Shown here piece after piece: positions 16,292 to 62,253 of a stretch of DNA of 64,000 bases. The notes under the pieces were generated by a model. The model worked only from the letters and a program-made list of their open reading frames with translations. It ran no database searches and had not been told where the DNA came from. The position numbers were made by a program, and so were the translations under genes. The DNA comes from Corynebacterium canis (GTDB lineage: Bacteria > Actinomycetota > Actinomycetes > Mycobacteriales > Mycobacteriaceae): positions 1,199,247 to 1,263,246 of the forward strand of contig NZ_CP047080.1 in NCBI RefSeq assembly GCF_030408595.1. The letters are read 5' to 3'. Within the stretch, counting starts at the first letter, position 1. The number at the start of each line of letters is the position of its first letter.

Positions 16292-16447
16292 GGGTTGAAC
16301 GTTGTCTACCGATATTTTTTACATCAAAATCCCGAAATCTGTGTAAAAAATATCGCGGCGATGGCCTGAGGGCGCCCAGGATGATGAAAATTACACAGAA
16401 TTCGCGTTTCGTGTGTAAAAAACTTCATGTGAAGTGCGCAACCCATT
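16292..16447 (+). repeat. 156-bp paired-hairpin element, copy 1
   Basis: The left end is GGGTTGAACGTTGTCTACC. Hairpin 1 has a perfect 13-bp stem, GATATTTTTTACA (16311-16323) with TGTAAAAAATATC (16342-16354). A GC-rich middle of about 25 bp and a second related hairpin (TTACAC ... GTGTAA) follow, ending in CAACCCATT. The outer ends form a short imperfect inverted repeat (GGGTTG). A GGGC/GCCC mini-palindrome at 16224-16235 may be the remains of the companion element. Short open frames across it (for example one giving ERCLPIFFTSKS) are shared only because the DNA is repeated. Confidence 0.85.
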
Positions 16448-16619
16448 CCGCGAGCCCCTCCACGGCCAATTTTCGCCTTCGGAGTCGGCGATTTGGGGAG
16501 GCGCGCCCGGAGTCGGTGGCATAACCTAGCTTTCTGGCCGGTACCTTGGGGTTTCTGAAGATAGGCTACCCCAATCTGCAAGGCGGCAATGTGTGCTGGG
16601 CTCGAGCTGCATCGCTCAA

Positions 16620-16854
16620 ACCCATATCGGATAGGGATTATATATCCATCACACTTTATGGGGCATTGCTTTGACCCATTGTGGCCGCATTGCGTTCTCG
16701 GATGCGTTCTCGAAAATCGCTCACCCAATACCAAATTGGACTCGAATGCCGCCCCATGAGGAAGATCCGGCGCGGTACGTTCCCTCAACTTATTCCGCCG
16801 CCGCCATGTCCAGAGCTGAACGTTGTCTACCGATATTTTTTGCTCTAAAATCCC
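16620..16854 (+). repeat. Degenerate composite: companion element and truncated paired-hairpin element
   Basis: At about 16690-16757 a diverged companion element keeps the small stem CCAAT/ATTGG where the other copies have CCATGGT/ACCATGG. At 16813-16854 the paired-hairpin element starts normally (GCTGAACGTTGTCTACCGATATTTTTT) but departs from the family within the first loop and lacks the right half. The stretch 16855-16981 is C-rich low complexity with no gene. Confidence 0.6.
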
Positions 16855-16981
16855 CGCCCCACAACCTGCCTGAACCGCCCAGCCCCGAGCCCCAAACCCC
16901 ACATCCGCCCCACAACCCGACCCAAGCCCCCAAACCCCAAATCCCCCAAAACCCCCGAAACCCCACCAGTCGGTCAGCGTC

Positions 16982-17452
16982 CTAGATCACCATCAGCACG
17001 GCGATGACCAGCCATAATGCTGCGAAGATTCCACTGAAAATGGCGAGTTGGCTTTTTGCTTTGTCCCAGTTGGCTATTTCTACGGGCTCGCTCGGCATGT
17101 CGTCTTCGTCAAGCAGCCCAAGCGCGGCCATCATTTTCTTTTGCCGCGGCAGGATCAGGAAGAATAGCAACGCCCAGGCGATAAAGGTGATCAGGATGGA
17201 GGCGTGCATCCGGCCTTCTTTCAGGAAGGTGATGTCGGAGAACAGTACGCCGAATCCGAGTAGTGGCACGAGCAGGGACAATAGCCCGTAGGTGTTGCTG
17301 ATTTTGTGCAGTACGGTGGCGGATCCGCGGGAGGCTTCGTTTCCGCGGTGTGCTTCCAGTGCGCGGACTTGGAAGGTGGAGGTTGCTACGGTCACGGGCC
17401 CTAGGAAGAGGATTGCCGCGATGACGTGCAGGATGAGCATGATTTGGTCCAC
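16982..17452 (-). CDS. Small four-helix integral membrane protein (DUF2269-like)
   Basis: Protein of 156 aa starting at GTG 17452. Four hydrophobic helices are visible (about residues 4-24, 52-74, 83-102, 134-155). The first, LHVIAAILFLGP, resembles DUF2269-type membrane proteins; I cannot assign a function. GAAAGG lies about 13 nt upstream. The gene follows the HNH nuclease gene by 18 nt on the same strand, so they are probably cotranscribed. Confidence 0.65.
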   Translation of the reverse strand: MDQIMLILHVIAAILFLGPVTVATSTFQVRALEAHRGNEASRGSATVLHKISNTYGLLSLLVPLLGFGVLFSDITFLKEGRMHASILITFIAWALLFFLILPRQKKMMAALGLLDEDDMPSEPVEIANWDKAKSQLAIFSGIFAALWLVIAVLMVI

Positions 17453-17470
17453 TTGGGGCTGGTACCTTTC

Positions 17471-18127
17471 TTAGGGTGGTGGTGATTCACCGGGCAACCT
17501 TAGTTGGCTTGGCACAAGTTCGCGAAATAGGCAGGCGTTGTGCATGGTGGCAAGGTCGTTTTCGGCGAGTGGGAGTTGCCATGCGGCTGCGACTTCGGCG
17601 ACGCGTCGGGCGTACCAGCAGCGGGCGGTTGTTGCTGGTGGCATCCATTCGGAGGGCAGCGCGTCTGATTTCGCCTGGTTTTGGGTTTTACTGGCGACGA
17701 TCAAATTACGGGGGTCATTGGCAAACTTTACGCGTTGTTGTGCCGTCCATGCGTATGCCCCCATGTCCCATGCTGCGCGGAGGGGATAGATATGGTCGAG
17801 TTCAATGTCTTCGCCTTCGGTGACGCCGATGGTTTTTCCGGAGTAGGGGTCCGTCCCGGTGCCGCTTGTGACCGGACATGTGTTCGCACCCATAAGCGCG
17901 TTGCGGAGGGCGAGGTCGCGGGTGGTGCAGCCGCCCGCGTGGTGCGCCCATCCGGGCCCGAATTGTTCACGTTCGTATCCGAGTACGGTTGCTCGTTGCA
18001 CTACGCTGCGGATTTGCGGCAGCGTGGCGGCAAGGGGTGTGCTTGGCCCCGGCGTATTGCTTATCGACGCCGCGACCATAAGCAGCGTAAGTACCACCAG
18101 CGCGTGCCCAACGGGAAAGTGCCTCAT
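17471..18127 (-). CDS. Secreted HNH endonuclease family protein
   Basis: Protein of 218 aa. An N-terminal hydrophobic signal (about residues 8-22) suggests export. The nuclease core is ELDHIYPL (the DH pair, near residue 110) followed by NDPRNLIVASKTQNQAKSD, which has the Asn and His-Asn-His-like arrangement of the DUF1524/GmrSD C-terminal HNH family. Two Cys pairs may be disulfides. Such exported HNH proteins are common in actinobacteria and probably degrade extracellular DNA. It lies downstream of putP on the same strand with a 50-nt gap. Confidence 0.8.
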   Translation of the reverse strand: MRHFPVGHALVVLTLLMVAASISNTPGPSTPLAATLPQIRSVVQRATVLGYEREQFGPGWAHHAGGCTTRDLALRNALMGANTCPVTSGTGTDPYSGKTIGVTEGEDIELDHIYPLRAAWDMGAYAWTAQQRVKFANDPRNLIVASKTQNQAKSDALPSEWMPPATTARCWYARRVAEVAAAWQLPLAENDLATMHNACLFRELVPSQLRLPGESPPP

Positions 18128-18177
18128 ACCCTCTTAGACGTGGGTGAGGCACTGGTTGGTTCCCTCGGGGGGTGGAA

Positions 18178-19683
18178 TTATTTTGCCATGGCTGCGGCTT
18201 TGTCGAATTCCTGGGTGATTTCCTCTGCGGGCGGCTTGGTGGCCAGGGAGACTAGCACCATGACGATGGCTGCGCTGAGGAAGCCCGGCACGATTTCGTA
18301 CATGACGTCGCCGAGTGCGGATTGCCCCCAGAAGAAGGAGACGAGGGCGCCGACGACCATGCCGGCGATGGCGCCTTGGTAGTTAAGGCGACGCCAGTAG
18401 AGGGATGCGATGACCAGCGGGCCGAAGGCGGAGCCGAAGCCTGCCCAGGCGAAGGCCACGAGGCCGAGGATGGAATCGTTGGGGCTGATCGCCAGCAGGG
18501 CTGCCACGAGGGCGACTCCGACCACGGCGGTGCGGGAGAGGTTGATAAGCAGCTGGCTGGACGGCTTCTTTTTCACCACGATGGTGTACAGGTCTTCGAC
18601 CAGCGCGGAGGCGACCACGAGCAGCTGGGAGGAGATGGTGGACATGATGGCGGCGAGCACGGCGGTGAGCACGAGGCCTGCGATCAGCGGGTGGAACAGG
18701 ATGCGGCCCATGTCAAGGAAGATGGTTTCAAAGGACTTTTGGTCCGTGACCACGTATTCGGCGTTTTGGCCGAAGAAGGCGGTACCAATAAGGGCGACGG
18801 CCGCGGCGCCAGCGATGCAGAAGAACATCCAGGCGACGCCGATAAAGCGGCCGTTGCGGGCTTCCTGCGGGGTGCGCAGCGCCATAAAGCGGACGATGAT
18901 GTGCGGCTGGCCGAAGTAGCCGAGGCCCCACGCCATATTGGAGATGATCGCCACCACGGATACGCCGGAGATCAGGGAGAAGTAGTTCGGGTTGCCCTCG
19001 GGGTGCGGGCCGTAGGGGTTGGAGGCGGCCCAGGTCCAGATCGAGGATGGGTCGTCAAGCGCGAAGAGCGCCATGAGCGGCACGATGATCAGGGACAGGA
19101 ACATGATCATGCCTTGCACTGCGTCCGTGTAGGACACCGCCAGGAAGCCGCCGATAAAGGTATAGGCCACGGTCACGGCGGCCACGATCAGCATGCCATC
19201 GAGGTAGTTGCCGTCGAACGAAGACTCGAAGTACTTGCCGCCGGCAACCATGCCGGAGGACACGTAGAAGGTAAAGAACACCAGGATGACCAAGGAGGAC
19301 ACGATGCGCAGCGCGCGGGTCTTGTCGTGTAGGCGGTTTTCCATAAAGGAGGGGACCGTCAGGGAGTTATTGGCGATCTCCGTGTAGGATCGCAGCCTCG
19401 GCGCCACCCACTTCCAGTTCGCCCAGCAGCCGATCAGCAGGCCGATTGCGATCCAGAGTTCGGAGAACCCAGTAACGAACAACGCGCCGGGCAGGCCCAT
19501 AAGGAGCCAACCGGACATATCCGAAGCGCCTGCGGATAGCGCGGCCACAAACGGATTGAGCCCGCGACCCGCGAGCATGTAGTCATCATATTCATCGGTT
19601 TGGCGGTAGCTCCAGTATCCGATTGCTAGCATCGCGAGCATATAGATAACAATGGCTACGATGAACCATGTATGCTGCGTCAA
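18178..19683 (-). CDS. putP: Sodium/proline symporter PutP
   Basis: I chose the TTG at 19683 because AAGGAGG lies 6 nt upstream and it gives 501 aa, the usual PutP length; the upstream in-frame ATG at 19818 would add 45 non-hydrophobic residues. About 13 membrane segments are visible. The sodium:solute symporter signature region (GYWSYRQTDEYDDYMLAGR, then AGASDMSGWLLMGLPG) and the later GMVAGGKYFESSF are characteristic of PutP. It imports proline with sodium for nutrition and osmoprotection. The 143 bp to the divergent SNF2 gene hold both promoters. Confidence 0.92.
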   Translation of the reverse strand: MTQHTWFIVAIVIYMLAMLAIGYWSYRQTDEYDDYMLAGRGLNPFVAALSAGASDMSGWLLMGLPGALFVTGFSELWIAIGLLIGCWANWKWVAPRLRSYTEIANNSLTVPSFMENRLHDKTRALRIVSSLVILVFFTFYVSSGMVAGGKYFESSFDGNYLDGMLIVAAVTVAYTFIGGFLAVSYTDAVQGMIMFLSLIIVPLMALFALDDPSSIWTWAASNPYGPHPEGNPNYFSLISGVSVVAIISNMAWGLGYFGQPHIIVRFMALRTPQEARNGRFIGVAWMFFCIAGAAAVALIGTAFFGQNAEYVVTDQKSFETIFLDMGRILFHPLIAGLVLTAVLAAIMSTISSQLLVVASALVEDLYTIVVKKKPSSQLLINLSRTAVVGVALVAALLAISPNDSILGLVAFAWAGFGSAFGPLVIASLYWRRLNYQGAIAGMVVGALVSFFWGQSALGDVMYEIVPGFLSAAIVMVLVSLATKPPAEEITQEFDKAAAMAK

Positions 19684-19826
19684 CGCGGCCTCCTTGTGAG
19701 GTGATGTTTGTGAATTCAAAGTACTTGGCCGGTTCAATGTATCGCCTCTCACAGTTCTTTGGCTAGCCATTGCCCGTAACTTTGCAAAATGGGGGGTGAC
19801 GTGGGTGTGCTGGTACAAAAGAAGTC

Positions 19827-22800
19827 ATGGTTACCCACTTGCTCCATGGATTGTGGCTGCGGGAAAGCGGCCTGCATTTTTGGATTGAGCAGGTGGAAGG
19901 ACACCGCGTAGTTACCCCCGATGAGGTACCTCAAGGTACATTTCCGCCCTGGGTTGATGCGCAGCTCCGGGAGAAGCAGTTTCGCCATTGGGTCCGGGTC
20001 CAGTTACAAACGCCCAGCGGTAAGTTTGTGGAGTTGCGCATTCCCACGGCGTCGTTAAGCCCCGAACAGGCGGTACAGGTGTTCGGACAGCTGGCGGTGT
20101 TGGACGGGGTGAGCCCCGCGGCGTCGAAAAGCCAGCGCGACACGATTGCGCCGGACCTTCGTTGGTTAGTTCGAATGTATCGCGGGCTGGAAAGGTATGT
20201 CCGAGCGGGGCGTGTGGCGTTGCGGGTGCGCTGGCTTGATGGCGAATGGTGGCCGCAATGGCAGCTTGCGGAAGGGCGCGGCGAACGCACATGGTTAGCC
20301 GCCATGACCAGCGCGTTACCGGGTGTGCTGGCCAGCAATTGCGGGGCGGCCGTCGCGGAGGATATCGCCGAGGAGCTGCCGCACTGGATCGCTTCAGCGA
20401 TATTGCAGGAGCTTGTCGACGCCCCGCGCCCCGCCCCTTGGCACGAATTTTCGCACGCCCTGCTCAACAACGCGCCCCTGCGTAATGGGAGTGCGCGTCT
20501 TGTGCATGCGTTGAATGTGTGGAAGGACTCTGCGGCGAACATACCTGCGGAACTTGTCGTGGTGGTGGAGCAGGCCGCGCGAGACGACACGTTGGACACC
20601 GAATTTTGGCCCGTGCGGATCCGCGTGCGCTTTGGCGTGGGCAGTCCGGTGCCTGTGCGCACCGATAGTATTGATACTGATGTGCTACTGCCGCTGCGTC
20701 AAAAATACGAAGATTTATGCGAGATCGCGGCGACGCTTGGGGGTAGCGTGGCGCAGCCACCGGAACGCGGCGAGCGCGCCGAACACGCGCTGACATTGCT
20801 TGGCGAGGAACGCTCGGGGACCGTCGGTGATTGGGATGTGTACCTGACCACGGATGAGTTGCAGGGTTTTCTCGCGGAAGACGTGGCCCGATTGCGGGCG
20901 GCCGGGTTTTCGGTCATGCTGCCGAAGAGCTGGTCGCGTTATGAGCTGAACGCCACCTTGGACATCGCGCCTGTAACCGATCCGGCGGTGGCGTCTACGC
21001 AGGTAAAAATGGGTTTTGAGCAGGTCGTCGGGTTTCAATGGCGGCTGAGCCTGGGCGGGGAGGAGCTCACGGAGGCGGAGATGAAACAGCTCATAGCTTC
21101 GAAAGCCGGGCTGGTTCGATTGCGGGGCGAATGGGTGATCGCCGACGCGGAATCGCTACGCAAGGTCACGCACTATGTGGACCAGCTCGCGGCGACCTCC
21201 AAACGCCGGCGCGACGCGGAGTTAAAGGAGCTGTATGCGCAATTGCGGCGGGCGCGGGCGGCGGAGACGGCGGAGGTTGCCGAGCTGGAACGCCGCGTGG
21301 CGGAACTCGAAGCGGCAATCGAACATGGGCACGATGGCATCGGTGAGGTGACCATCGCAGAGTTGCGCGAATTGGCCTTGGCCCACGCCGAAGCCCAGCC
21401 CGTGGACTATGCCGGCAGCACCTGGCATCTCGCACTGGCTGGCGAACTTGAGGATAACAGCGCCGTGCCCGCGCCGACCCGAGTCACGATACCGTCCGGG
21501 GTGCGCGCCGAGCTGCGCGAATATCAGCGCCGCGGCGTGGATTGGTTGCTGTGGATGAGCGGCCAAAACCTTGGTGCCGTGCTTGCAGACGATATGGGCC
21601 TGGGCAAAACACTCCAATTGCTCACCCTGCTGGCGGTAGAACGTGAGTGCGGTTCCACGGCCCCGACCCTGATCGTCGCGCCGACCTCCGTGGTAAATAA
21701 CTGGGCCGCGGAGGCCGCGCGCTTCACCCCGGACGCGCGGGTGATGGTCCACTACGGCACGCAACGCGCCAGCGGCGATGAATTCTGCGCGCAGGCGCGG
21801 AAGGCGGACCTGGTGATCACCTCCTACGGGATTTTGAGCCGCGAGTTTCCGCTGCTCCAGCGGGTGGAATGGGAACATGTGGTGCTGGATGAGGCGCAGC
21901 AGATTAAGAATTCCTCGACCAAGGTGGCGCGCGCCGCGCGGAGCTTGCCGGCGCGGCAACGCATGGCGCTCACGGGGACGCCGATTGAAAATAGGCTATC
22001 CGAGCTGCGTTCCATCCTGGACTTTTGCAATCCGGGGATCCTGGGGAGCGCGTCGTTCTTCCGCAATCACTTCGCCAAAGCTATCGAACGCGAGGAGGAT
22101 GAGGTGATCGCGGAACGTTTGCAGCGCCTCACCGCGCCGTTTATCCTGCGGCGGCTCAAAACCGACCCCGCGATCATCGACGACCTTCCGGAGAAAAATG
22201 AGGAGATCGTCTACGTTAATCTCACTTCGGAACAGGCCGCGCTGTACAAGGCGCTCGTGGACAATGTGGAGGAGCAGATCGAGCGCACGGCAGGGGTAAG
22301 CCGCAAGGGGCTGATCCTGGCCACCATCACGCGCATCAAACAAATATGCAATCACCCGGCGCATTATCTGGGCGATGATTCCCCGTTGGTGCTGCGCGGG
22401 CGGCATCGCTCCGGGAAGGTGCAGGAGCTCACCCGCATCTTGGACGAGGCGGCGGAGCGCCAGGAGCGCGTCTTGGTGTTTACCCAATACCGCGCCTTCG
22501 GCAAGTTGCTGCAGGGGTATTTGGCCGAGCGCTTAGACACGCAGGTCCCGTTTTTGCATGGTGGGGTGTCCAAGGCTCGGCGCGATGCGATGATCGCGGA
22601 GTTTCAGGGTGCGTCCGGTCCGCCGGTGATGCTGCTTTCGCTGAAAGCTGGCGGCACTGGCCTGAACTTGACCGGCGCGAACGTGGTTGTGCATATGGAT
22701 CGGTGGTGGAATCCTGCGGTGGAAAACCAAGCCACGGACCGTGCGTATCGCATTGGGCAAGATAAAAACGTGCGCGTTTATAAGATGATTGCCACGGGTA

Positions 22801-23749: not shown

Positions 23750-23809
23750 TTGCACGAGTGTTCGGTGGCGCCGGTGGTTTGTTTGGCGGCAATAGTACAG
23801 ATGGGTGTT

Positions 23810-29637: not shown

Positions 29638-29644
29638 GAAACGC

Positions 29645-40087: not shown

Positions 40088-40180
40088 GGCGTTGGGTTTG
40101 GGTCGCTGGTGTTGGGCTGGAGGCGCTTAGGCGTTGGGTTTGGGTCGCTGGTGTTGGGCTGGAGGCGCTAGGCGTTGGGG
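40088..40180. repeat. 42-bp tandem repeat downstream of thrB
   Basis: Two near-identical 41-42 bp units beginning GGCGTTGGGTTTGGGTCGCT, plus the first 10 bp of a third. GT-rich, no coding character. Confidence 0.85.
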
Positions 40181-40210
40181 CGTAGGTGGCTTTTGGCCTA
40201 AGCGTGCCTT

Positions 40211-40520
40211 GCCCAATTTATTTCTTTGACAAAAGCTGATTGAAAACGCCGCAGGAGCCCCGCTGCGGCCTCGAAATCGGCTACCCATGGTGAACCATGG
40301 CTGAATTTCATCGCCTAACGTCATAGTAATGAATTAGGCCGCCCCCGGTCGGTATCCGCGCCCGGAGTTGAACGTTGTCTATCGATATTTTTTACATCAA
40401 AATCCCGAAATCTGTGTAAAAAATATCGCGGCGGCGGCCCTGGGCGGCCCCGGATGATGAAAATTACACAGAATCCGGGTTTCGTGTGTAAAAAACTTCA
40501 TGCGCAGCACACAACCCATT
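40211..40520 (+). repeat. Composite element: companion (40211-40331) and paired-hairpin copy 2 (40365-40520)
   Basis: The companion contains a 6-bp stem CCGCAG/CTGCGG and, further on, CCATGGT/ACCATGG with a 2-nt loop. After a 34-bp spacer the 156-bp paired-hairpin element follows, with the same 13-bp first stem and TTACAC/GTGTAA second hairpin as copy 1. The same order and the same 34-bp spacing occur at 61942-62253. The rest of the thrB-arnR spacer holds no gene. Confidence 0.85.
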
Positions 40521-40754
40521 CGCGCCCCTTGCTGGTCTGCCTGGTTTTGCCGTTAAGGCTGCATCATGGCCGATGATCCATCGAGGTCCACGCCCAGAAT
40601 CGGAGGTCTGCACGCAGAATTGAGATCCATGCCCAGGATCGAGGGCGGCGAAGCTTTTGCCGTGAAGCCCTTACCTGTTTTGCGTCACTCCGCGCGCTTT
40701 CTGATCACCGGTGATGCGTTACGTGTTGGTTCCAAATCGAAACCAATATCACTC

Positions 40755-41061
40755 AATATATTTTGCAGACAGAACCTTATTTCGAAATGTCACAATGCCT
40801 CTCTGAGGCCCTGAAATGAACCGCCCATGTTGGGCATACGTCGAATTACGTCACAGTGACGAAAATCCATCCCGATGAGTTACACTCGATCCATTCCTAT
40901 GTCCGGAGTTGAACGTTGTCTACCGATATTTTTTACATCAAAATCCCGAAATCTGTGTAAAAAATATCGCGCCAAGCCGCCTAGGCCGCCCAGGATGATG
41001 AAAATTACACCGGATCCGGGATTCTGGTGTAAAAAACTTCATGCACAGCACACAACCCATT
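40755..41061 (+). repeat. Composite element: diverged companion (40755-40860) and paired-hairpin copy 3 (40906-41061)
   Basis: The companion is strongly diverged but still has a central stem, here GCCCA/TGGGC with a 3-nt loop. The paired-hairpin part is 156 bp; its middle reads GCCGCCTAGGCCGCC, a self-complementary variant of the GC-rich centre seen in other copies. It lies 69 bp from the end of the convergent arnR-like gene. With copy 2 it forms a tandem pair in one spacer. Confidence 0.8.
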
Positions 41062-41129
41062 TCCTCAGGCTAAGAATCCGCCACTCCATCGCCCGCCACC
41101 AAGCCACCCGCTTGCCAAGCCGGTATTCG

Positions 41130-41852
41130 TCAATCAGTGGCGTCTTTTCGGATAATCACTTCGCAGGTGTGGGGTCGCGCGCTGGGATAAAGTTCCACGA
41201 CTGCGGTGCCGTGCTCGCATGGCCCGAGAGATTCGGCTAGAAATCCGCGATGAATCGCACATACAAGCTGTGACGGGTTTTCGTTGTCCGAGCTAAACGG
41301 GCAGGCGTGAATAGAGATGCTTGCCGAGTGCTCGTGGGCGTATTGTGGCCCAGGGTCGAACCCGAGCTGCCGTAATGCGCGGGTCAAGGTGGTGGTCGCT
41401 TCGCTGATTTCGGACCATGTTGTGCCGGACCGGTTCAGCCGCCGCGCCCAGAGTACGCCTACTTGTTCGGCTGTTTTCTGCACTTCCGGATCGTCAGGAT
41501 CGCCCAAGTGTTCTACCAGCGCATTGATGAGTGCCGCGTGTTCGCTGAGCACTGCGCTGCCGGAGGGCACGCGAGCGTGGAATATCACTGATGGCCGACC
41601 TCGTCCGCGACTTTGTTCGCGCTCCGTGGCCACTGCGTTCATATCGCAGAGTTCGTCCAAGTGTCCGCGAACGGTATTGACGTGCATGCCGAGGGTTTCG
41701 GCGATTTCGGATGCCTTGGCGCCGTCCTCGAAACTGCGAAGCGTTTCCAGCACGAGTCGCTGCATGCGCGATAGCGGCATGGTGTCTGTGGCGAGCCTCG
41801 CGGTCGGTGGTGGGCGGTTTTCGGTGTCTGGCACGTCTTTGAGTGTACTCAC
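41130..41852 (-). CDS. arnR: ArnR-like helix-turn-helix regulator of nitrate respiration
   Basis: I place the start at GTG 41852, which overlaps the modBC stop as GTGA, giving 240 aa; an in-frame ATG at 42032 would lie deep inside modBC. A winged HTH is visible at about residues 30-75 (SRMQRLVLETLRSF, ASEIAETLGMHVNTVRGHLD). The C-terminal half carries four Cys (CPF, CAIHRG, CEHGT, CEVII), suitable for an iron-sulfur cluster. In C. glutamicum the repressor ArnR is encoded right after narKGHJI and controls it; position and architecture agree here. The symbol is assigned by context plus architecture. Confidence 0.7.
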   Translation of the reverse strand: MSTLKDVPDTENRPPPTARLATDTMPLSRMQRLVLETLRSFEDGAKASEIAETLGMHVNTVRGHLDELCDMNAVATEREQSRGRGRPSVIFHARVPSGSAVLSEHAALINALVEHLGDPDDPEVQKTAEQVGVLWARRLNRSGTTWSEISEATTTLTRALRQLGFDPGPQYAHEHSASISIHACPFSSDNENPSQLVCAIHRGFLAESLGPCEHGTAVVELYPSARPHTCEVIIRKDATD

Positions 41853-43831
41853 CTCCGATCTGCGTTTTTCGTTGGCGTTCCGCCGATTCGTGTATGCGTT
41901 TGAACTCTCGGCTGGAGCGGGGTGATGCGGATGGCTGTTGCTTTGGTGGCCAGCCAGACGTTGTCGCCGACGTTTAACTTCAAGGCGCTTGCCGACGCCG
42001 TGGTAATCGGCACTCGAATAATTGTTCCGCATGCTGCAACGCGGAGCTCTGCGATGCTATTGCTGGATTCGATCGAGTGTATGATTCCGCGCCAGTGGTT
42101 GCGTGTGGATTCCGTGATTGGCGGTGCGTCGTCGAGCCGCACGCTGGTGGCTTCGGGGTTACATATCGCAAGCCCGGGTGCGCCGATTTCCAAGTCGGAA
42201 GTTTGTGCGATTCCGTGGATGTTGCCGGCTTCGGTTTCTAGCACGGCGGTGGAGTCCGTGGTGCTGATGATGGTCCCTGGAATGCGATTGATGCCCGCTA
42301 GTTGGGCGACGAAATTGTTTGGTGGCAGGGTAAGGATTTCGGTGGTTGTGCCGTGTGCGACGGTTTCGCCGCGTTCCAGCACCACGATGGACTCCGCCAG
42401 GCTGGCGATTTCTAGGGGGTTGTGCGAAATCAGAATGGTAGTTCGATCTCCGGCGCTGGTGAGTAGGTATTCGCGCCAGCGTTGCGCCGCCGCCACATCG
42501 AGGGCCGCGAGAGGTTCGTCAAGAATAAGCGTTCGAGGCCGAGTCGCCAGCGCGCGCACCAATGCGACTTGCGCGGCTTGGCCACCGGATAACGATGCGA
42601 TCTTGATGTGCTCTAAGGCTTGCAGTCCGGCGGCGCGGATAAGCGTGGAGGCCGCCGCACTGGATTCCGCCACCATGGCGATCGCTTTATGAACAGTTGT
42701 ATGAACCGGCAGGCCGTGCCTTTGAGTCAGGAGGACGACGCCGCGTCTGTGCGCCGGAAGGTAGGCTTCACCGTCGACTGGCTGGGCGTCGATAATCACG
42801 TTGGCACCGCGGAGTCTGCCGGAAATGAGGTGCGCCAAGGTTGATTTTCCGGCGCCGTTTGGTCCGATGACGGCGGTGATGGAGTTGGGACGGAAATCGG
42901 CTTGGAGGGCTCTGCGTTTGATGCTGATATCGGCGCCGCCCCGCGTTGGGGTGCTGGCGTCTCGGAGTGCATGCGGGTCGAATCCAGAGCCGATATCCGT
43001 GGCTTGGAAAAGTTGTTTGCTTGGCCGGATAAAGAGCGTGATCGCGCCGGTGGCGGCAAGCACGATCGTGGCCAGCATGATAAGGAAGAATGCCAGCACT
43101 AGCGCGCGTCCGGTATCGATCTCTCGTTCTACATAGATGCCGAGCGGCATGGTACGGGTCACGCCGGGAAGGGAACCGGCAAACGTCAAGGTGGCGCCGA
43201 ATTCTCCCAGCGATCGACTGAGCGCGAGGCCGGCGCCGGTCACAATCGCGGGCGCCACGGACGGCAAAATGATCTTGAATACCATTGCGGTTGGGCGGAG
43301 GCCGAGGCCGGCAGCGCTGGCGATGATCTCGGGGTCTAGGTGCCGGAGCGCTTGATCCACAGCGACCACCACGAATGGCAGCGAGATGAATACGTGTGCG
43401 GTAACAACGCCAGCGAATGCAAAGCCGAATTGCAGCCCTAGGAACTCCAAGATCGGGGCGGTGATGCCGCGTCGTCCGAGCGCCGCCGTTAGTGCTAGGC
43501 CGCTTACCACTGGGGGCAGCGCGAGGGGGAGGATCGTGAGCAGGCGCGCTACATTGGCACCGCGGCGCATGGACCGGAGCCACAGCGCCAGCGGGACGCC
43601 GAGGAGCGTGGTGATCACCATGGATAGCAGCGCCGAGGCGAGCGTCACCCGTGCGAGCGCAAATGTTTCGGGGGCGGCCGCGACCTCGGCCACGCGATGC
43701 CAAGGGACGCGAACGAACAGAGCTGCGATTGGTCCGATAATGACGGTGGCGGCCAAGAGCCCACCCAATAGCACCACCGGTGGCAGGTGAAGCCGGCTCG
43801 GACGAAGTGGAGGGAGAGTGGGCTCGCTCAT
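41849..43831 (-). CDS. modBC: Fused molybdate ABC transporter permease and ATPase (ModB-ModC)
   Basis: Start ATG 43831 gives 660 aa. Residues about 10-275 are a ModB-type permease with six helices and the EAA-like loop IIASAAGLGLRPTAMVFKII. Residues about 300-505 are an ABC ATPase: GPNGAGKST, LSGGQAAQ, LILDEPLAALD, and the switch His in ILISHN. The last 130 residues are TOBE/Mop-like molybdate-binding repeats. Fusion of permease and ATPase in one chain differs from the separate E. coli proteins. It follows modA by 20 nt and overlaps the regulator gene by 4 nt. Confidence 0.92.
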   Translation of the reverse strand: MSEPTLPPLRPSRLHLPPVVLLGGLLAATVIIGPIAALFVRVPWHRVAEVAAAPETFALARVTLASALLSMVITTLLGVPLALWLRSMRRGANVARLLTILPLALPPVVSGLALTAALGRRGITAPILEFLGLQFGFAFAGVVTAHVFISLPFVVVAVDQALRHLDPEIIASAAGLGLRPTAMVFKIILPSVAPAIVTGAGLALSRSLGEFGATLTFAGSLPGVTRTMPLGIYVEREIDTGRALVLAFFLIMLATIVLAATGAITLFIRPSKQLFQATDIGSGFDPHALRDASTPTRGGADISIKRRALQADFRPNSITAVIGPNGAGKSTLAHLISGRLRGANVIIDAQPVDGEAYLPAHRRGVVLLTQRHGLPVHTTVHKAIAMVAESSAAASTLIRAAGLQALEHIKIASLSGGQAAQVALVRALATRPRTLILDEPLAALDVAAAQRWREYLLTSAGDRTTILISHNPLEIASLAESIVVLERGETVAHGTTTEILTLPPNNFVAQLAGINRIPGTIISTTDSTAVLETEAGNIHGIAQTSDLEIGAPGLAICNPEATSVRLDDAPPITESTRNHWRGIIHSIESSNSIAELRVAACGTIIRVPITTASASALKLNVGDNVWLATKATAIRITPLQPRVQTHTRIGGTPTKNADRR

Positions 43832-51411: not shown

Positions 51412-51442
51412 GGGGGTGGGTCTTTCGCTACTAGCGGGCGGG

Positions 51443-52774: not shown

Positions 52775-52972
52775 GAAAGTGTCACCTTTCGTAGATATCC
52801 ACGACGGTGCCGCGGATGAATGTGAGTCTGCGCGCGGAAGCTCTTCGTCTTAGTTCTATTTAAACGAAAAAAACTGGGTAAAATGTCGCTTGAGGCCTCT
52901 AGGGGGCGTTTGCCCGCGTGAGGATAGCGAAATACACCCTATAACGGGGGTGAAATCGGGAAGGAATGTGCA

Positions 52973-53521: not shown

Positions 53522-53793
53522 CTCACACGTGTGAACTTAATGTGCCAGTCCTCCGGCCCTTGCTTAACGTATGTGCGTTCGAATTCTTCGGCGCGGGCGT
53601 CGATTTCTTCGAGCAAGGGCAGCGGATTGTGCGGAGCGATCAAGATCATGGAATCGCCCGGTTGCAGCGTGTTTAGCGCCCCGTGAACCGCACCGTGGCG
53701 GAGGGCGTGCGGAATGGCGCCGGCGTCGATGGCCGGGATGGCGGGCTCATGGGAGTGGCAATCGCACGCGGCGATGGGCAGTGACTTTTCCAC
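53518..53793 (-). CDS. DUF2249 domain small protein
   Basis: Protein of 91 aa. ALRHGAVHGALNTLQPGDSMILIAPHNPLPLLEEIDAR is the DUF2249 pattern; HDCH-like residues sit at its N-terminus (CDCHSHEP). DUF2249 proteins are often found with nitrite/NO-handling genes and hemerythrin-like proteins; the biochemical role is not established. A Cys/His-rich start could bind a metal. It lies beside the possible nitrite reductase pair. Confidence 0.8.
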   Translation of the reverse strand: MEKSLPIAACDCHSHEPAIPAIDAGAIPHALRHGAVHGALNTLQPGDSMILIAPHNPLPLLEEIDARAEEFERTYVKQGPEDWHIKFTRVS

Positions 53794-53892
53794 GGGAACT
53801 CCTAGTAGTGTGAACGGAAGAGGTATTTCTTACGATTTTAGCCGTGGAAAATAGGTGGATGGCAATTCTGTACAGCAACGCGGGGGCGCCGA

Positions 53893-56525: not shown

Positions 56526-57130
56526 CCTTCTGGCCGCCAGCGGGACAGCGATTCCGGGGTGTCGTAATCTTGCTCGGCCCCCGTGCCGGCCACCTGCACT
56601 ACCTGTGGAGCCGCCGCGATGAGTCTCTTCGCCGCGATATCTCGAGTATTAGGCAGCGTGTTCAATGCCTTTAGTAGCGAATCCTTGTTCCATAATGCGC
56701 ATAGCGGTTCTAGGAATCCGGCGGTGCTGCGAACCACCGCCACATCGGAATCGGCGAGCGCTGCGCTCAGGGCGGGTAGCAGCCGGGCCGCATCCGGTGC
56801 ATCCACGGCTAGGATCAGCACTCGGGTCCCGGGGGTGTTGCGCAGGGCCGCGGCCCCCGCGGCGATCCCTGCGACGGGGCCGCCAAAAGCCGGGTCTTCG
56901 CAAGTTCTTACGACACCCTCGGGGAGGGTGAATTCGCGCGGCGTGACCACCACGATTTCAGACACTTCATAGTGGGACCGCAGCTCCGCCACGATGCAAT
57001 CGATAAAGCGCAGGCCATCGCGCTCTAATTGCGCCTTGTCGCGCCCACCCATGCGCGAGTTGTGGCCGCCCGCCAAGATAATAACGTCGATTCCCGGCCC
57101 GCCGCCTATGGATGTTCGTTTCGTATCCAT
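56522..57130 (-). CDS. mobA: Molybdenum cofactor guanylyltransferase
   Basis: Start ATG 57130 gives 202 aa. ILAGGHNSRMGGRDKA near residue 18 is the GTP-binding signature and DAPDAARLLP a later nucleotide-site motif. It attaches GMP to molybdenum cofactor, forming the MGD that NarG needs. The start lies 25 nt inside moaC. Its stop shares CTAG with the convergent nirK-like gene. Confidence 0.9.
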   Translation of the reverse strand: MDTKRTSIGGGPGIDVIILAGGHNSRMGGRDKAQLERDGLRFIDCIVAELRSHYEVSEIVVVTPREFTLPEGVVRTCEDPAFGGPVAGIAAGAAALRNTPGTRVLILAVDAPDAARLLPALSAALADSDVAVVRSTAGFLEPLCALWNKDSLLKALNTLPNTRDIAAKRLIAAAPQVVQVAGTGAEQDYDTPESLSRWRPEG

Positions 57131-57582
57131 GTTCCAGACCTGCCGCCGCTTTTCGAGGTGACAAAGCAATTCCGAATATATGCACTGCGGTCTACGCCCT
57201 TCACCATATCGATGATTGCCAGCGCGGCCACGGTCACAGCGGTCAGCGCTTCCATTTCGACGCCCGTTCGGTCCGCAGTGCGCACGCTGCCGTCAATGAC
57301 CACGTGGTCGGCGTGCAATTCGATCTTGATTTCGCAGCCATGCACACCGATTGTGTGTGCGAGTGGCAGGAGTTCCGGCACCCGCTTTGCGGCGCTGATC
57401 CCGGCGATGCGAGCAACCGCAAGCACATCCCCCTTGGGCACTGTGCCATCGCGCAGGGACTGGATCACTTCCGGAGAGCATGCCACCTCGGCGTGCGCCG
57501 TGGCGTGCCGCACGCTTGGTTGCTTGCCGGAAATATCCACCATATGGGCGGCACCGTGATCGTTGAGGTGCGTGAATTTCAT
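57106..57582 (-). CDS. moaC: Cyclic pyranopterin monophosphate synthase
   Basis: Protein of 158 aa, full length. MVDISGKQPSVRHATA at the start, KGDVLAVARIAGISAAKRVPELLPLAH and LTAVTVAALAIIDMVKG are the conserved MoaC segments including the active-site Lys and His. Second step of pterin ring formation after MoaA. Follows moeA by 9 nt on the same strand. Confidence 0.96.
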   Translation of the reverse strand: MKFTHLNDHGAAHMVDISGKQPSVRHATAHAEVACSPEVIQSLRDGTVPKGDVLAVARIAGISAAKRVPELLPLAHTIGVHGCEIKIELHADHVVIDGSVRTADRTGVEMEALTAVTVAALAIIDMVKGVDRSAYIRNCFVTSKSGGRSGTWIRNEHP

Positions 57583-57591
57583 GGGGGAATC

Positions 57592-58809
57592 CTATACCAA
57601 GAGCACCCGAACGGGCTGGCCAATTGCGGTGGTACCCGTGCCGTGTGGCAGGTATGCCAAACCAGTTACCCCAGCCAGCGACGCCACGAAGTGGCTGCCC
57701 AAGCCGCTCCGATGGGAGCTGATCGCCTGAGGGGTGGTTCCGTACTTGATGCGCACCGGAATGAATCGATCGCGCTTGCTATCTGCATGGAATTCGCAAG
57801 CCGCGCTGGCCATCAGTTGCGGGCGCTCGTCCAATCCCTGCGGAACCTGACCGCTCAGGGCACGCATGAGCGGGGCCACAAATAGGTGGAAGGACACGAA
57901 TGCGCTTACCGGGTTGCCCGGCAAGCAGAGGATCGGGATCCCATCGAACGTACCTGCGCCTTGTGGCTTGCCTGGTTGCAACGCCACCTGACCGAACCAG
58001 ACATCCGGTGAAAGTAGCTCCCGCACGATGTCGAATGCACCTGCGGATATGCCGCCGGTGGTCAAAATGAGATTCGAGCCCTTAGCGGCCTCGAGGGCGG
58101 CGCGCAACGCCGCCGGAGTGTCCCCGGTGGCGGGCAGCACATGGGTCTGTGCGCCCTGCGATTGACACAATGCGGCGAGCATCGGGCTATTGGAATTGGG
58201 GATCTGCCGATCCAATTCATCGCCAGTGGCAAGGATGGAAACGCGAATAGGCTGGTGAACGGGGACGGTCGCATTGCCGGTGGATACGAGTGCGGCGATG
58301 GTCGCGGCGTCGATACGCGTGCCTTGAGCAACGGTGAGTTCCCCGATCGCGGTGTCTTCGCCCCGCATGCGAATGTGTGCGCTGGGCTTTGGGGCGGTGA
58401 ATATGGTGACCGAACTGGGGAGCGATTGTGGGCCGCGTGGGATATTGGTGTGTTCGACGGGCACAACGGCGAGGCCGGGCTCCTCTGGCACGGGCGCGCC
58501 GGTCATGATGCGGAGGGCGGCGCCCCGTCTTGGAGTTCGAACGTCTGTACCCGCGGGGATATCGCCGATGACTGGGAAGGTCCACGGGCCGGGGCCATTG
58601 AAATCCGCGTGATGGACGAGGAAACCATCCATGGCCGAATTGTGAAACGGGGGCACCGCGAGCTTCGCATATATGTTTGCCGCGAGGGTGAGGCCGAGGG
58701 CATCGCTGGGCGCCATGGTGGTTACTGGGGTCGGCGCGGTGGCGAGGCTGAGCACGGCATCGAGATGCTCGGAAAGGCTGCGTAACACGAGGAGCTCACT
58801 TTCTGTCAT
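57592..58809 (-). CDS. moeA: Molybdopterin molybdenumtransferase
   Basis: Start ATG 58809 gives 405 aa; a longer in-frame start at 58866 has no better support. MoeA motifs: PPFHNSAMDGFLV (near 51), IMTGAPVPE (near 100), TTGGISAGAFD and LPGNPVSAFVSFHLF (near 309). It inserts molybdate into adenylated molybdopterin. It is the first gene of moeA-moaC-mobA and is divergent from moaE with 37 nt between the starts. Confidence 0.94.
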   Translation of the reverse strand: MTESELLVLRSLSEHLDAVLSLATAPTPVTTMAPSDALGLTLAANIYAKLAVPPFHNSAMDGFLVHHADFNGPGPWTFPVIGDIPAGTDVRTPRRGAALRIMTGAPVPEEPGLAVVPVEHTNIPRGPQSLPSSVTIFTAPKPSAHIRMRGEDTAIGELTVAQGTRIDAATIAALVSTGNATVPVHQPIRVSILATGDELDRQIPNSNSPMLAALCQSQGAQTHVLPATGDTPAALRAALEAAKGSNLILTTGGISAGAFDIVRELLSPDVWFGQVALQPGKPQGAGTFDGIPILCLPGNPVSAFVSFHLFVAPLMRALSGQVPQGLDERPQLMASAACEFHADSKRDRFIPVRIKYGTTPQAISSHRSGLGSHFVASLAGVTGLAYLPHGTGTTAIGQPVRVLLV

Positions 58810-58846
58810 GATGTGGAAAAGCGGAACGGGAAAGGCCAGAGAGCAA

Positions 58847-59260
58847 ATGACATACGGAAGAATCACGAATTGCCCACTTACAATCGCCGAAATAGCAACA
58901 CGGGTCGCGGACGATACATCGGGTGCGATAGCCGTCTTTGATGGGCGCGTTCGTAACCATGATCACGGGCGAGAAGTCACCTCGTTGGAATACAGCGCGC
59001 ATCCCGCAGCCGAACGTATTGTGCAAGAAGTAGCGGAGGATATTCGCGAGAGATTCGGGCTGTGTGGCGTGGCAATTGTGCATCGAGTTGGCCATTTGAA
59101 CATCGGTGAAACTGCGCTCGCTGCGGCGGTGAGCAGCCCACACAGGGAAGCCGCGTTCGCGGCGCTTGCGGAGCTTGTGGATGAAGTAAAAAAGCAAGTA
59201 CCGGTGTGGAAAAAACAATACTATTCCGATGGCACATACGAATGGAGCAATTGCGCCTAG
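58847..59260 (+). CDS. moaE: Molybdopterin synthase catalytic subunit
   Basis: Start ATG 58847 (GAGAG just upstream) gives 137 aa. FDGRVRNHDHGREVTSLEY, HRVGHLNIGETAL and the active-site VPVWKKQYYSDGTYEW near the C-terminus are the MoaE hallmarks. With MoaD it adds the dithiolene sulfurs. Convergent with moaD, sharing CTAG at the stops. Confidence 0.95.
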   Translation: MTYGRITNCPLTIAEIATRVADDTSGAIAVFDGRVRNHDHGREVTSLEYSAHPAAERIVQEVAEDIRERFGLCGVAIVHRVGHLNIGETALAAAVSSPHREAAFAALAELVDEVKKQVPVWKKQYYSDGTYEWSNCA

Positions 59261-59502
59261 CCGCCAGCGAACGGGGGCAAAATATCCATCGTGCGCGCAT
59301 CGCTAAGATCCTGGTTTTCGGTGTGTGCATCATTGATAAACACTGTGCAATGCGGGTGAATACTTGCCAAGCTGGGAAATCGCTGTTCCAGCAAATCTAG
59401 GGCCTCGGCGAGCTGCGCGTTTTCGGGTATCTCTAGGGTGGTTTCGCTCGTGCCCGCAGCGTCTGCCGCAGCGGCAAAAAACCGGACCGTAATAGGGCGC
59501 AT
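59257..59502 (-). CDS. moaD: Molybdopterin synthase sulfur carrier subunit
   Basis: Protein of 81 aa with a ubiquitin-like fold and the required C-terminal Gly-Gly (ILPPFAGG) that becomes a thiocarboxylate. VRFFAAAADAAG at the start matches the family. It follows moaA by 5 nt on the same strand. Confidence 0.94.
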   Translation of the reverse strand: MRPITVRFFAAAADAAGTSETTLEIPENAQLAEALDLLEQRFPSLASIHPHCTVFINDAHTENQDLSDARTMDILPPFAGG

Positions 59503-59507
59503 ACCTG

Positions 59508-60581
59508 TTAACCTCCAATGGCGGACATCGTGCGTGTGGGTTGCAAAAAGGTGGGATCATTAATGCCGTGACCAGCAGGTTTATTCCACATGGCGGTAGT
59601 CCAAGCGGCGGCGATCTCGGCGTCGGAAGCGCCCGCACGCAGCATCGCCTTTAGATCCGTTTCGGTGTGGCTAAATAAGCAGGATCGAATGGCGCCATCG
59701 GAAGTCAGGCGGGTGCGATCGCAATCCCCGCAAAATGGTTTGGATACCGCCGCGATGACACCGATATCCCCCGTGATATCGGGATTTAGCTTGTCGGTCG
59801 CGTGCCATAGCTTCGCTGGTGCTGCGGGATCCTCGGTGTGAGCGCGCGTGAGATCGAATCGCTGTTCGAGGGTGTGTAGGATCTGTGCGGCCGTAATCAT
59901 CGAACTCTGGTTCCAAGTGTTTGGCGGCCCTAGGGGCATATGTTCGATAAAACGCAGATGGAGGTGATGGTGCAGGCAATATTCAGCGAGAGGGACAATG
60001 TCTTGCTCGTTCACCTTTGGCATCACAACCGTATTCACCTTTACCGGAGTGAGGCCCAGACGTTGCGCTGCGGCGATGCCCTGAAGGACGTCGATAAGCC
60101 TGGTGCGGCGAGTGATTTGCGAATACCTGTGCGGGTCGAGCGAATCCAAAGAAATGTTCACACGGTCCAAGCCAGCCGCGACCAGTGATGGAGCATGGCG
60201 AGCGAGACTCACACCGTTCGTAGTGATCGCAGTGGACACCGGTTTGCCCTGGTCAGTGCGCAAAGCCTTCGTGGCCGCAATGACATCGGCAAGGTGTTTG
60301 CGCAACAATGGCTCGCCGCCCGTGAAGCGGACCTTTCGAATGCCCAGGCGAGTGACGCCGATGGTGATCAGGCGGATCAATTCCGCATCCGAAAGATGCT
60401 CGGCGGTGGGGATCCACGGCAGACCCTCCGCAGGCATGCAATACGTGCAACGGAGATTACAGCGATCCGTAAGTGACACACGCAAATCGCGGGCAATGCG
60501 TCCGAAACGGTCAGTGAGGAGTCCCGCGCGTGGACTGCCGATTTCGGTCGCGCCGGGCTGGAGCGCAAACGAGGTGGTCAC
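59508..60581 (-). CDS. moaA: GTP 3',8-cyclase, radical SAM
   Basis: Protein of 357 aa starting at GTG 60581. The radical-SAM cluster motif is DRCNLRCTYCMP (near 40), followed by TGGEPLLR; the second 4Fe-4S cluster is CGDCDRTRLTSDGAIRSC near 286-303. The C-terminal Gly-Gly needed for activity is present. It makes the first pterin intermediate from GTP. Upstream gene of moaD. Confidence 0.96.
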   Translation of the reverse strand: MTTSFALQPGATEIGSPRAGLLTDRFGRIARDLRVSLTDRCNLRCTYCMPAEGLPWIPTAEHLSDAELIRLITIGVTRLGIRKVRFTGGEPLLRKHLADVIAATKALRTDQGKPVSTAITTNGVSLARHAPSLVAAGLDRVNISLDSLDPHRYSQITRRTRLIDVLQGIAAAQRLGLTPVKVNTVVMPKVNEQDIVPLAEYCLHHHLHLRFIEHMPLGPPNTWNQSSMITAAQILHTLEQRFDLTRAHTEDPAAPAKLWHATDKLNPDITGDIGVIAAVSKPFCGDCDRTRLTSDGAIRSCLFSHTETDLKAMLRAGASDAEIAAAWTTAMWNKPAGHGINDPTFLQPTRTMSAIGG

Positions 60582-60659
60582 AAGGCTAGGCTACGTGAAA
60601 ATAGGGAATAATTCCAGATAAAACCGTAGAAATTTGTGCGTTGGGTGGTGGGAGGCGGA

Positions 60660-61298
60660 CTACACGGCTTCCAGAGCTTCCGCGATGGGAACGGAACCGT
60701 CGGCCATCGTGATGACCTTGCCGAAAGTATTCCTGCGTTCGAGAACGGCGGCGAGAACTTGGGCGACGTTTGGGATCGAATTCGGTTGCGCAAAGGTGAC
60801 ATCGGTTTGGATCAGACCCGTTGCGGTGCTTGCCTCGACAAGGCGGCCCGGTTGGATAATCGTGTAATCCAGCGAGGTGTTGCGGATTAACCACTGGTCA
60901 GCGAAGAATTTGGCGATGTTGTAATTCATGATCTCCGCGAGGCCCGGGTCGGACCACCTTTCTGGTTGTGTGGCAAACACAGAAGACAGCAGGATAAACC
61001 GCTCAACACCTGCCAACTCGGCAGCTTGCATGAGCTTGACCGCGCCGAAGGCATCCACCTGCAATAAGTTTGCGCCGCGCGAGCCTGCGGTGAAATATAT
61101 CGCGTCTACGGGAGCGATGAGCTTGGATAATTCCTCAGGCGACGCCGTTAAATCGAAGGCTACGGGGGTGATATTGCTTGTAGTGGGAATGGCGGCGGGG
61201 TTTCGTGCGCCCGCAAAAACGTGATGACCTGCGGATACGAGTTCTTGGATGAGGGCTTGGGCGACGCGACCAGTGGCGCCGGCGACAAATATCTTCAT
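60660..61298 (-). CDS. NAD(P)-binding SDR-like (NmrA/YwnB type) protein
   Basis: Start ATG 61298 gives 212 aa. FVAGATGRVAQALIQELV at the N-terminus is the dinucleotide-binding Rossmann loop (GATGRV). LLSSVFATQPERW and MNYNIAKFFADQWL hold positions of the SDR catalytic Tyr-Lys region, where the Tyr-x3-Lys pattern is not exact. Family members serve as oxidoreductases or redox sensors. No link to the Moco genes is evident beyond position. Confidence 0.85.
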   Translation of the reverse strand: MKIFVAGATGRVAQALIQELVSAGHHVFAGARNPAAIPTTSNITPVAFDLTASPEELSKLIAPVDAIYFTAGSRGANLLQVDAFGAVKLMQAAELAGVERFILLSSVFATQPERWSDPGLAEIMNYNIAKFFADQWLIRNTSLDYTIIQPGRLVEASTATGLIQTDVTFAQPNSIPNVAQVLAAVLERRNTFGKVITMADGSVPIAEALEAV

Positions 61299-61617
61299 GG
61301 CGAGCAGCTTTCTGGAGATTCGGGTGAAGGGTACGCGTGTTCTTGCCACGATACTGGTGCCGGTGAGTTGGGAGGTGCGTGGTTTTACTTCGGCGAGGGA
61401 TATCGCGTGCTCACTCAGGTTATTTTTGCGTGTCGGTTGGGCGCTACATATGTTGGATGGTTGCGGGCGTAAGGTAAGGGGTTTGTTTGGTGTGGATGGT
61501 GGTGATAGATATGGCTAAAATCACATTTGGGGCGAAGCTGGGGCTTGGGTTGGAGGATGTCGGCGTGTCGACGCCGCTGTGGTTTTGGGGTTGGCTGCAT
61601 TCGGCGAACCGTGCGCG

Positions 61618-61774
61618 GGGTTGAACGGTGTCTATCGATATTTTTTACATCGAAATCCGGAATTCTGTGTAAAACATATCGCGGATGATGGCTCTAGGGG
61701 TTCCCGAATGATGAAAATTACACAGAATCCGGGTTTCGTGTGTAAAAAATTTCATGTGAAGTGCGCGACCTATT
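61618..61774 (+). repeat. 157-bp paired-hairpin element, copy 4
   Basis: Starts GGGTTGAACGGTGTCTATCG and ends CGACCTATT. Stem 1 is GATATTTTTTACA with TGTAAAACATATC, one position changed; loop and GC-rich middle also vary. The second hairpin with TTACAC/GTGTAA is intact. No clear companion element precedes it. The surrounding spacer (61299-61617, 61775-61941) shows no gene. Confidence 0.85.
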
Positions 61775-61941
61775 GCTTTGGGGTGTTGGCGGTTCGGTAA
61801 ATGTTGTCGCGATCTGTTGTTGTGGCCGATGGTTTTGTGAAACTTGCGTCTGTGCGGGGTGAATGAGGGGGTGCCGTGTTTGATCTGGGGCCCTCGATTA
61901 CTTGTGGAGCACAACGCATTGGCTGAAGAGGGGTATGATCG

Positions 61942-62253
61942 CGGCCAATATATTTCTCGGACCAAAGCTTATTATGGGAATGCCGTAGGAGCTCCGCTGA
62001 GCTTGCGAAATTGGCTACCCACGGTGAACTATGGGCGAATCGGGCTAAAGGCGTCATTTTGATGTGGTTGGTTGCTTCCAACCTATCCTCGCATCGAGGG
62101 TTGAACGGTGTCTACCGATATTTTTTACATCAAAATCCCGAAATCTGTGTAAAACATATCGCGGCGGCGGCCCAGGGCGGCCCCAGATGATGAAAATTAC
62201 ACAGAATCCGGGATTCGTGTGTAAAAAACTTCATGTGGAGGGTGCAACCTATT
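61942..62253 (+). repeat. Composite element: companion (61942-62064) and paired-hairpin copy 5 (62098-62253)
   Basis: The companion aligns over its whole length with 40211-40331 (shared CGAAATNGGCTACCCA core and later GGCGTCAT), with the central stem weakened to CCACGGT/ACTATGG. Spacing to the paired-hairpin element is 34 bp, as at 40331-40365. The 156-bp element has TGTAAAACATATC in stem 1, like copy 4, so copies 4 and 5 form a subgroup. From 62254 to 62604 I see no gene. Confidence 0.85.

Follow-up and report, generated by a model that had tools for sequence, protein, structure and literature searches.

What is the short repeat that recurs between genes in one stretch of the Corynebacterium canis chromosome, and is it mobile DNA? 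The stretch analysed (hereafter the window) covers 64,000 nt of a 3.05-Mb genome (GCF_030408595.1, NZ_CP047080.1, positions 1,199,247–1,263,246). An initial annotation had described in it six copies of a strictly intergenic element of 156–157 bp with AT-rich stems, built from two related hairpins, and had offered a mobile non-autonomous element, an array resembling bacterial interspersed mosaic elements (BIMEs) and a structured RNA as candidate explanations, with passive local duplication as the fallback should the copies be confined to these places and show no empty sites, covariation or transcript. We find that the element, which we call E, is dispersed over the genome and is probably the best-conserved portion of an intergenic repeat that carries no genes, is non-autonomous and is specific to its lineage, a composite of the order U–E–spacer–U–E (U being a conserved upstream flank) with a mover that acts in trans.

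Element E is a dispersed intergenic palindrome

A profile of E was built from one copy with nhmmer and iterated over the window and 54 fetched stretches (55 sequences). Because these stretches came from a pattern search (100 of 104 matches listed) and from BLAST (best 40 of 117 candidates), all counts of copies and sites are lower bounds. The profile gave 195 raw matches in 54 of the 55 sequences, which reduce to 100 non-overlapping hits, 82 of them near full length (worst E-value among these, 6e-22). After the halves of copies split by insertion sequences (ISs) were rejoined, E amounts to at least 93 copies at 56 genomic sites (82 near-full, 7 IS-split and 4 truncated), spread over the chromosome on both strands. 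A 20-base hairpin-arm pattern with up to three mismatches matches the genome 104 times (some matches being the opposite arm), and its reversed control not once, so chance does not account for the family.

The six window copies lie where the initial annotation placed them: the profile recovers all six, five full and one truncated (Table 1). The model extent is 151 nt in 61 of the 82 near-full copies (range 148–154), and the G+C content of E is 45 per cent, compared to 60 per cent for the window. Overlaps with called genes that exceed 30 nt were seen for only two of the 100 hits, and both are fragments of IS-split copies lying over IS genes; genes were called with our own codon-usage script, which missed, for example, the open reading frame at 41130–42032 beside site 2.

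The anatomy of E needs some revision. The two hairpins are related, but chiefly in that one is close to the reverse complement of the other: the model detects almost all copies a second time on the opposite strand, and 95 of the 195 raw matches were dropped as overlaps, mostly as such self-matches. E is therefore one long imperfect palindrome. When one window copy is folded together with its flanks, the best structure is accordingly a single long hairpin (z = −2.9 against shuffles), and RNAalifold, applied to the 82 near-full copies, retains the two local hairpins with 28 predicted pairs. The outer inverted repeat, given earlier as GGGTTG, is weak, and only GTTG/CAAC of it is common in this consensus fold. 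An integron attC site is an unlikely identity for E, since the core motifs of attC sites stand in the opposite order to these GTTG...CAAC ends. Both sides have changed in just one of the 28 predicted pairs, so that conservation is mostly of sequence. An extra pair at the tip of hairpin 2 is A-T in 59 copies and C-G in six, mismatched in 13 and unread in four. In two loci with divergent copies (L006 and L028), the stretch between the two loops seems by eye to be inverted.

The motif TTWTNCACA, which we take to resemble a DnaA box, has two matches in 63 of the 82 copies, one in 14, three in three and none in two. Nine of its 13 matches in the window fall in E copies (e.g. at 16348, 16420 and 40421).

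E is part of a paired composite

Conservation extends upstream of E into a flank of about 135 nt, U, which is found at most E copies and exists in several types. Over the 82 copies, ungapped columns of U carry 0.40 bits on average, compared to 0.05 bits in control columns. U matches another locus at 50 per cent ungapped identity or more in 69 of the 82 copies and in none of them after a shift of 7 nt. Regular expressions, whose counts are lower bounds, find a GTAGCAGCC-type hairpin in U of 31 of the 82 copies, mostly at position −114, and the palindrome CGTCACWGTGACG in 19 of the 82, 57–58 nt before E where its position was printed. The downstream flank is barely conserved (64 per cent identity within a pair and 59 per cent across loci, with 58 per cent for shuffled sequence).

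Two E copies are present at 37 of the 56 sites, in the same direction in all 37, and no site has three. All three window sites are such same-direction pairs, the second copy being truncated at site 1. Between the 29 pairs of full copies, the start-to-start distance has a median of 500 bp (range 375–896), and an all-against-all BLAST comparison shows that the spacer between paired copies is homologous across loci. We measured the reach of this homology as the third-longest collinear match of each copy to other loci, up to 700 nt to the left and 400 nt to the right. It extends at least 341 nt past the first copy in 26 of the 29 full pairs and at least 387 nt to the left of the second in 27, and it ends 96–263 nt to the left of the first copy in 28 of the 29 and 20–89 nt to the right of the second in all 29. 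Since spacers are homologous between loci and the homology stops outside the pair, what has spread seems to be a noncoding composite some 850 bp long, which would move as one. The element of the initial annotation is thus real, but it is only part of a larger unit; the composite, U, the sister family and the loop-targeting IS described below were missing from that picture.

Among the 24 near-full copies without a near-full partner, homology ends 57–261 nt to the left in 21 and 10–83 nt to the right in 19. Eight of the 24 have a split or truncated partner, which leaves 16. Judged by these outer boundaries, single-E sites seem to be what is left of a composite whose two E copies have recombined.

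The two largest pair distances (721 and 896 bp) belong to loci whose spacers (L013 and L050) contain a third repeat, with ends like TTTATTCACGG or GGTTTATTCACGG. By eye, similar sequence also lies near L019, L027 and L036.

The E copies of a site resemble each other. Paired copies differ by 8.3 per cent (29 pairs) and non-paired copies by 14.6 per cent, and none of 2000 permutations gave a value as low. Across loci, first copies differ by 12.3 per cent, second copies by 13.9 per cent, and first from second copies by 13.1 per cent; first and second copies therefore form no clearly separate lineages. Between the two U flanks of a pair, likeness does not exceed 89 per cent in any case and, in 15 of the 29 pairs, ungapped identity is below 45 per cent. 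Even in these 15 pairs with unlike U, the E copies differ by only 9.3 per cent, less than in any of 5000 reshufflings. Local gene conversion probably keeps the two E copies of a site alike.

A sister family shares the end motif of E

F, another family of palindromes, is represented by at least 41 copies (best 40 of 124 candidates scored), with inverted ends that read by eye approximately CGATRGGTTGYGCGCA / TGCACACAACCTATCG. One window copy folds as a single long hairpin (z = −7.6 against shuffles). F occurs mostly as direct pairs about 380–520 bp apart, with two or more copies at 17 of 21 loci and three at one of them; this pairing rate is biased upward because the loci were partly picked for having two copies already listed. 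The second F copy of one locus (L157) finishes in a tandem array of roughly six F right ends, with a period of 21 bp.

Allowing one mismatch at most, the common right-end motif of E and F, RCRCACAACCTATYG, has 177 matches in the present genome, compared to 0–13 in 241 other genomes of the genus and three here for the reversed control. Two of these relatives, G109 and G190, have 12 and 13 matches; all 12 in G109 read GCACACAAACTATCG and perhaps belong to another repeat family.

Each family is the target of its own insertion sequence

An IS of 1.71 kb is present in 11 copies, seven of which lie in E hairpin loops (hairpin 1 in four cases, hairpin 2 in three). Of the other four, one is situated some 10 nt outside an E copy and three are elsewhere. 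By eye, 3-bp direct repeats flank all 11. Its proteins match the IS3 family best but stay below the curated threshold, the larger one scoring 136.9 of the required 160 bits. This IS3-family IS inserts preferentially in E hairpin loops. All 12 copies of a second IS lie in the centre of F, in both orientations (four and eight by eye), between 14-bp direct repeats that are perfect in ten cases and have one and two mismatches in the other two (by eye). Its protein matches IS481 at 222.8 bits, just below the cut-off of 224. By rough binomial estimates, both associations are far beyond chance. The possibility that F is a deletion form of the IS481-like element was rejected, given that the IS sits in F both ways and within 14-bp direct repeats.

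Table 1. Features of the three E sites and the F pair in the window, and loci that carry the two insertion sequences.
Feature	Position or locus	Strand	Evidence
F copy 1, inverted ends CGATGGGTTGCGCGCA / TGCACACAACCTATC (ends by eye)	5001..5183	+	by-eye ends, search, fold
F copy 2, oriented like copy 1 and 400 bp away from it	5401..5585	+	search
E copy 1, site 1, full	16294..16443	+	profile hit
E copy 2, site 1, truncated to model positions 1–41	16814..16854	+	profile hit
U flank, site 2; GCCGCAGGAGCCCCGCTGCGGC hairpin at 40248–40269	40231..40365	+	conservation, pattern
E copy 1, site 2	40366..40516	+	profile hit
Spacer, site 2; last ~135 nt are the second U, palindrome CGTCACAGTGACG at 40849–40861	40517..40906	+	homology
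E copy 2, site 2	40907..41057	+	profile hit
E copy 1, site 3, without clear U flank	61620..61770	+	profile hit
Spacer, site 3; last ~135 nt are the second U flank	61771..62099	+	homology
E copy 2, site 3	62100..62249	+	profile hit
IS3-family IS in E loops	L004, L007, L020, L022, L023, L047, L055		
IS3-family IS, four further copies	L140–L143		
IS481-like IS in F centre	L164–L171, L173–L175		

Short direct tandem repeats also lie near the E sites of the window, at 15943–16009, 40088–40171 and 62605–62683 (periods of 17, 42 and 47 bp).

E is restricted to one lineage and favours convergent gene ends

The nucleotide search suggested with the initial annotation was run against the 241 other genomes of the genus, with up to the best three candidates scored per genome, and E has no match there apart from pieces of 22–28 nt in two. 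One spacer with its U, used as a query with up to the best two candidates scored per genome, matched only two pieces of 32–34 nt. The E profile has no match in 80 loci around related thrB genes, the setting of site 2 in the window (some of these loci end early on the downstream side). Six of the junctions were read by eye, and in the two closest relatives the converging gene ends lie well under 100 bp apart, compared to about 1.1 kb here; E thus inflates gene-free junctions, to judge from the single junction that was compared. A phage or plasmid origin was rejected on searches of PLSDB, in which nothing matches E, and of IMG/VR, in which one E and one F pattern have no exact match. The open-access literature that we searched holds no account of such a Corynebacterium repeat. 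Stem-loop clusters of some kind have been counted in C. diphtheriae (passages of PMC2267715).

For the analysis of location, E sites number 64 rather than 56 because IS genes divide some of them, and the controls are intergenic gaps from the same neighbourhoods that measure 60 nt or more and hold neither E nor F. E sites favour convergent gene ends: of the 63 that could be assigned (one could not), 35 are convergent, 23 tandem and 5 divergent, compared to 9, 29 and 31 of the 69 control gaps (Fisher P = 3e-7 for convergent and 1.4e-6 for divergent sites). The 19 assigned F sites, with two more unassigned, are distributed likewise (13 convergent, 6 tandem and none divergent; P = 5e-6 for convergent sites).

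A composite probably moved in trans

Among the explanations first put forward, a mobile non-autonomous element is the best supported, with at least 93 dispersed copies, no match in relatives and no copy at the one junction compared. We propose that the composite of two U–E units in the same direction, with their spacer, would spread through intergenic DNA as one unit, moved by an enzyme that is supplied in trans and has possibly been lost from this genome. Recombination between the two E copies could reduce the composite to a single E, while gene conversion would act locally on the copies that remain together. Copies may survive chiefly near gene ends, where their location is observed, because they do least harm there. 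The inverted arms can form hairpins, the loops of which the IS3-family IS would enter preferentially, and F would follow the same scheme with the IS481-like IS. On this view the repeats look like parasitic DNA on which further mobile elements settle.

Several observations weigh against this proposal. We found no mobilising enzyme in the genome, no strain-level empty site (the comparison being only with diverged species) and no target-site duplication of the composite (the nearest relatives being too diverged between genes). For 95 left-facing end motifs, we measured the distance to the nearest right-facing one, with 81 of the 85 right-facing motifs used. It is 260 nt or less in 41 cases, 500–700 nt in five, 1800–1910 nt in 11 (F with its IS) and some other value up to 5.9 kb in six, and the remaining 32 of the 95 have no right-facing partner within 6 kb. 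No full-length autonomous transposon with E or F ends was seen, with the six cases of odd spacing not inspected singly. Of 58 paired E copies, only 26 have their own partner as nearest relative. The single-E state could be the ancestral one instead of a derived one, and U with its palindromes in fixed register exceeds the needs of a simple miniature inverted-repeat transposable element (MITE), which could mean that it has a function.

A bolder form of the proposal would make E and F one new class of mobile DNA, namely noncoding composites bounded by same-direction palindromic modules with their own regulatory flank, recognised by the mover at the shared end GCRCAACCTATC, shrinking by recombination, held alike by gene conversion and with each family parasitised by a dedicated IS. 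We regard this generalization as tentative and on balance doubtful.

Alternative explanations

If E copies were BIME-like functional sites of the chromosome, their palindromes would bind gyrase, a nucleoid protein or, via TTTTACACA cores, DnaA where convergent transcription meets. The strong preference for convergent gene ends, the conservation of sequence rather than structure and the recurrence of two TTWTNCACA matches per copy, with their presumed likeness to DnaA boxes, all fit such a role. However, the two matches follow from the inverted arms, the purging of copies from promoters would give the same bias in location, and the lack of any E found in other species of the genus argues against a conserved need. 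We consider this explanation unlikely.

Slightly less probable still is a multicopy RNA gene, in which U would be a promoter with an operator-like palindrome and E would be transcribed and fold into two hairpins or one long one. This reading draws on the ungapped conservation of U upstream of most copies, on the fixed register of its hairpin (near −114) or palindrome (−57/−58), and on two folds, those of a single E copy and a single F copy computed together with their flanks, both more stable than shuffles. The structured RNA of the initial annotation nevertheless finds no support in covariation, with two-sided change confined to a single pair of the consensus, or in Rfam, where nothing in the window except a tRNA elsewhere reaches the gathering score and one match falls far below it. 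In the region 40150–41150, which contains site 2, sigma-70-like promoters number zero (shuffle mean 1.0). The four terminator-like sites there (shuffle mean 1.2) do not include an E hairpin, and nothing similar was found in relatives of the genus. It is the conserved upstream flank that keeps this possibility, improbable as it is, under consideration. Intrinsic terminators were rejected as an identity for E on the same count; one of the four sites is the U hairpin, on the other strand.

Two known modes of spread seem far less probable. Two inverted hairpins per element, many copies, an intergenic location and ISs in the loops recall REPINs, pairs of repetitive extragenic palindromic (REP) sequences moved by a REP-associated tyrosine transposase (RAYT). 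The Y1_Tnp domain (PF01797), however, has no match in the genome and is detected in 5 of 14 control genomes, on which ground we rejected a RAYT/REPIN identity, and the unit and order of E differ from those typical of REPINs; such an origin is very improbable. A retroelement with long terminal repeats (LTRs) is comparably hard to credit. Direct repeats around a homologous noncoding spacer, with single copies resembling recombination products, would suit an LTR-like element and its solo repeats, but the reverse transcriptase domain RVT_1 (PF00078) has no match in the genome (3 of the 14 controls are positive), and U flanks as unlike as those within pairs do not look like repeats copied from one template.

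Passive local duplication without mobility, which the greater likeness of paired copies might suggest, is the least credible explanation and is refuted by the genome-wide distribution: the 56 sites are scattered along both strands of the chromosome, and their spacers are homologous. The refuting outcome named in the initial annotation, passive local duplication, therefore does not apply.

Comparison with known systems

Enterobacterial repetitive intergenic consensus (ERIC) sequences and similar palindromes (YPAL, Bcr1) measure 100–200 bp, are intergenic and number tens to hundreds of copies (passages of PMC2267715). As far as that description goes, E is like them in size range, intergenic location and multiple copies, and it too is an imperfect palindrome throughout. 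It differs in having the U flank and same-direction pairs with a homologous spacer, the comparison being one of descriptions and not of sequences.

BIMEs typically lie at gene 3′ ends or between convergent genes and bind gyrase, IHF or Pol I, and REPs are 20–40 bp long. E is likewise situated at gene ends and convergent junctions, but it measures about 150 bp, and no RAYT was found here. BIMEs alternate in orientation (passages of PMC2817692), whereas the order of E is direct at all 37 multi-copy sites. The BIME-like candidate of the initial annotation therefore stands as regards location and the role of IS target, and fails as regards arrangement; nor was a REP transposase found. The ISs that target REPs come from the IS3, IS110, IS4, IS256 and IS5 families (passages of PMC1525189), and REPs can serve as IS481 targets (passages of PMC11708052). 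E and F resemble, as intergenic palindromes that are IS targets, those used by IS1397, ISKpn1, IS621 and ISPsy8 and by IS481 in Pseudomonas fluorescens SBW25, as far as these sources describe them. Since palindrome targeting by IS3 and IS481 is thus in print, both IS families found here have precedent.

Like MITEs as usually defined, E is short, noncoding, multicopy, dispersed and lineage-specific, and F has inverted ends by eye, while the outer ends of the E composite are ill defined. Unlike MITEs, the composite contains internal direct repeats. We also found neither a parent transposon that matches in its ends nor a target-site duplication of the element, although divergence from the nearest relatives may hide the latter. 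Direct repeats that enclose a noncoding spacer, and solitary repeats at other sites, also recall plant terminal-repeat retrotransposons in miniature (TRIMs) and solo LTRs as generally understood; with no reverse transcriptase here and non-identical flanks within a pair, this likeness is formal only.

The best reading of E is a non-autonomous repeat resembling MITEs, ERICs and BIMEs, with an unusual paired architecture. E is ordinary in kind, as a lineage-specific intergenic palindrome that ISs target, and unusual in architecture, given its paired composite, its conserved flank and the two parallel families. The spread of REP palindromes in proteobacteria is attributed to a tyrosine transposase. 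The present genome, which is Gram-positive and high in GC, holds at least two large palindromic families in which no such transposase was found, which occur in pairs and which are used by two ISs of different families. E and F thus offer a second system, independent of the first, for studying the spread of palindromic repeats, the reason for their pairing, and whether it is the shape of a hairpin or its sequence that ISs read.

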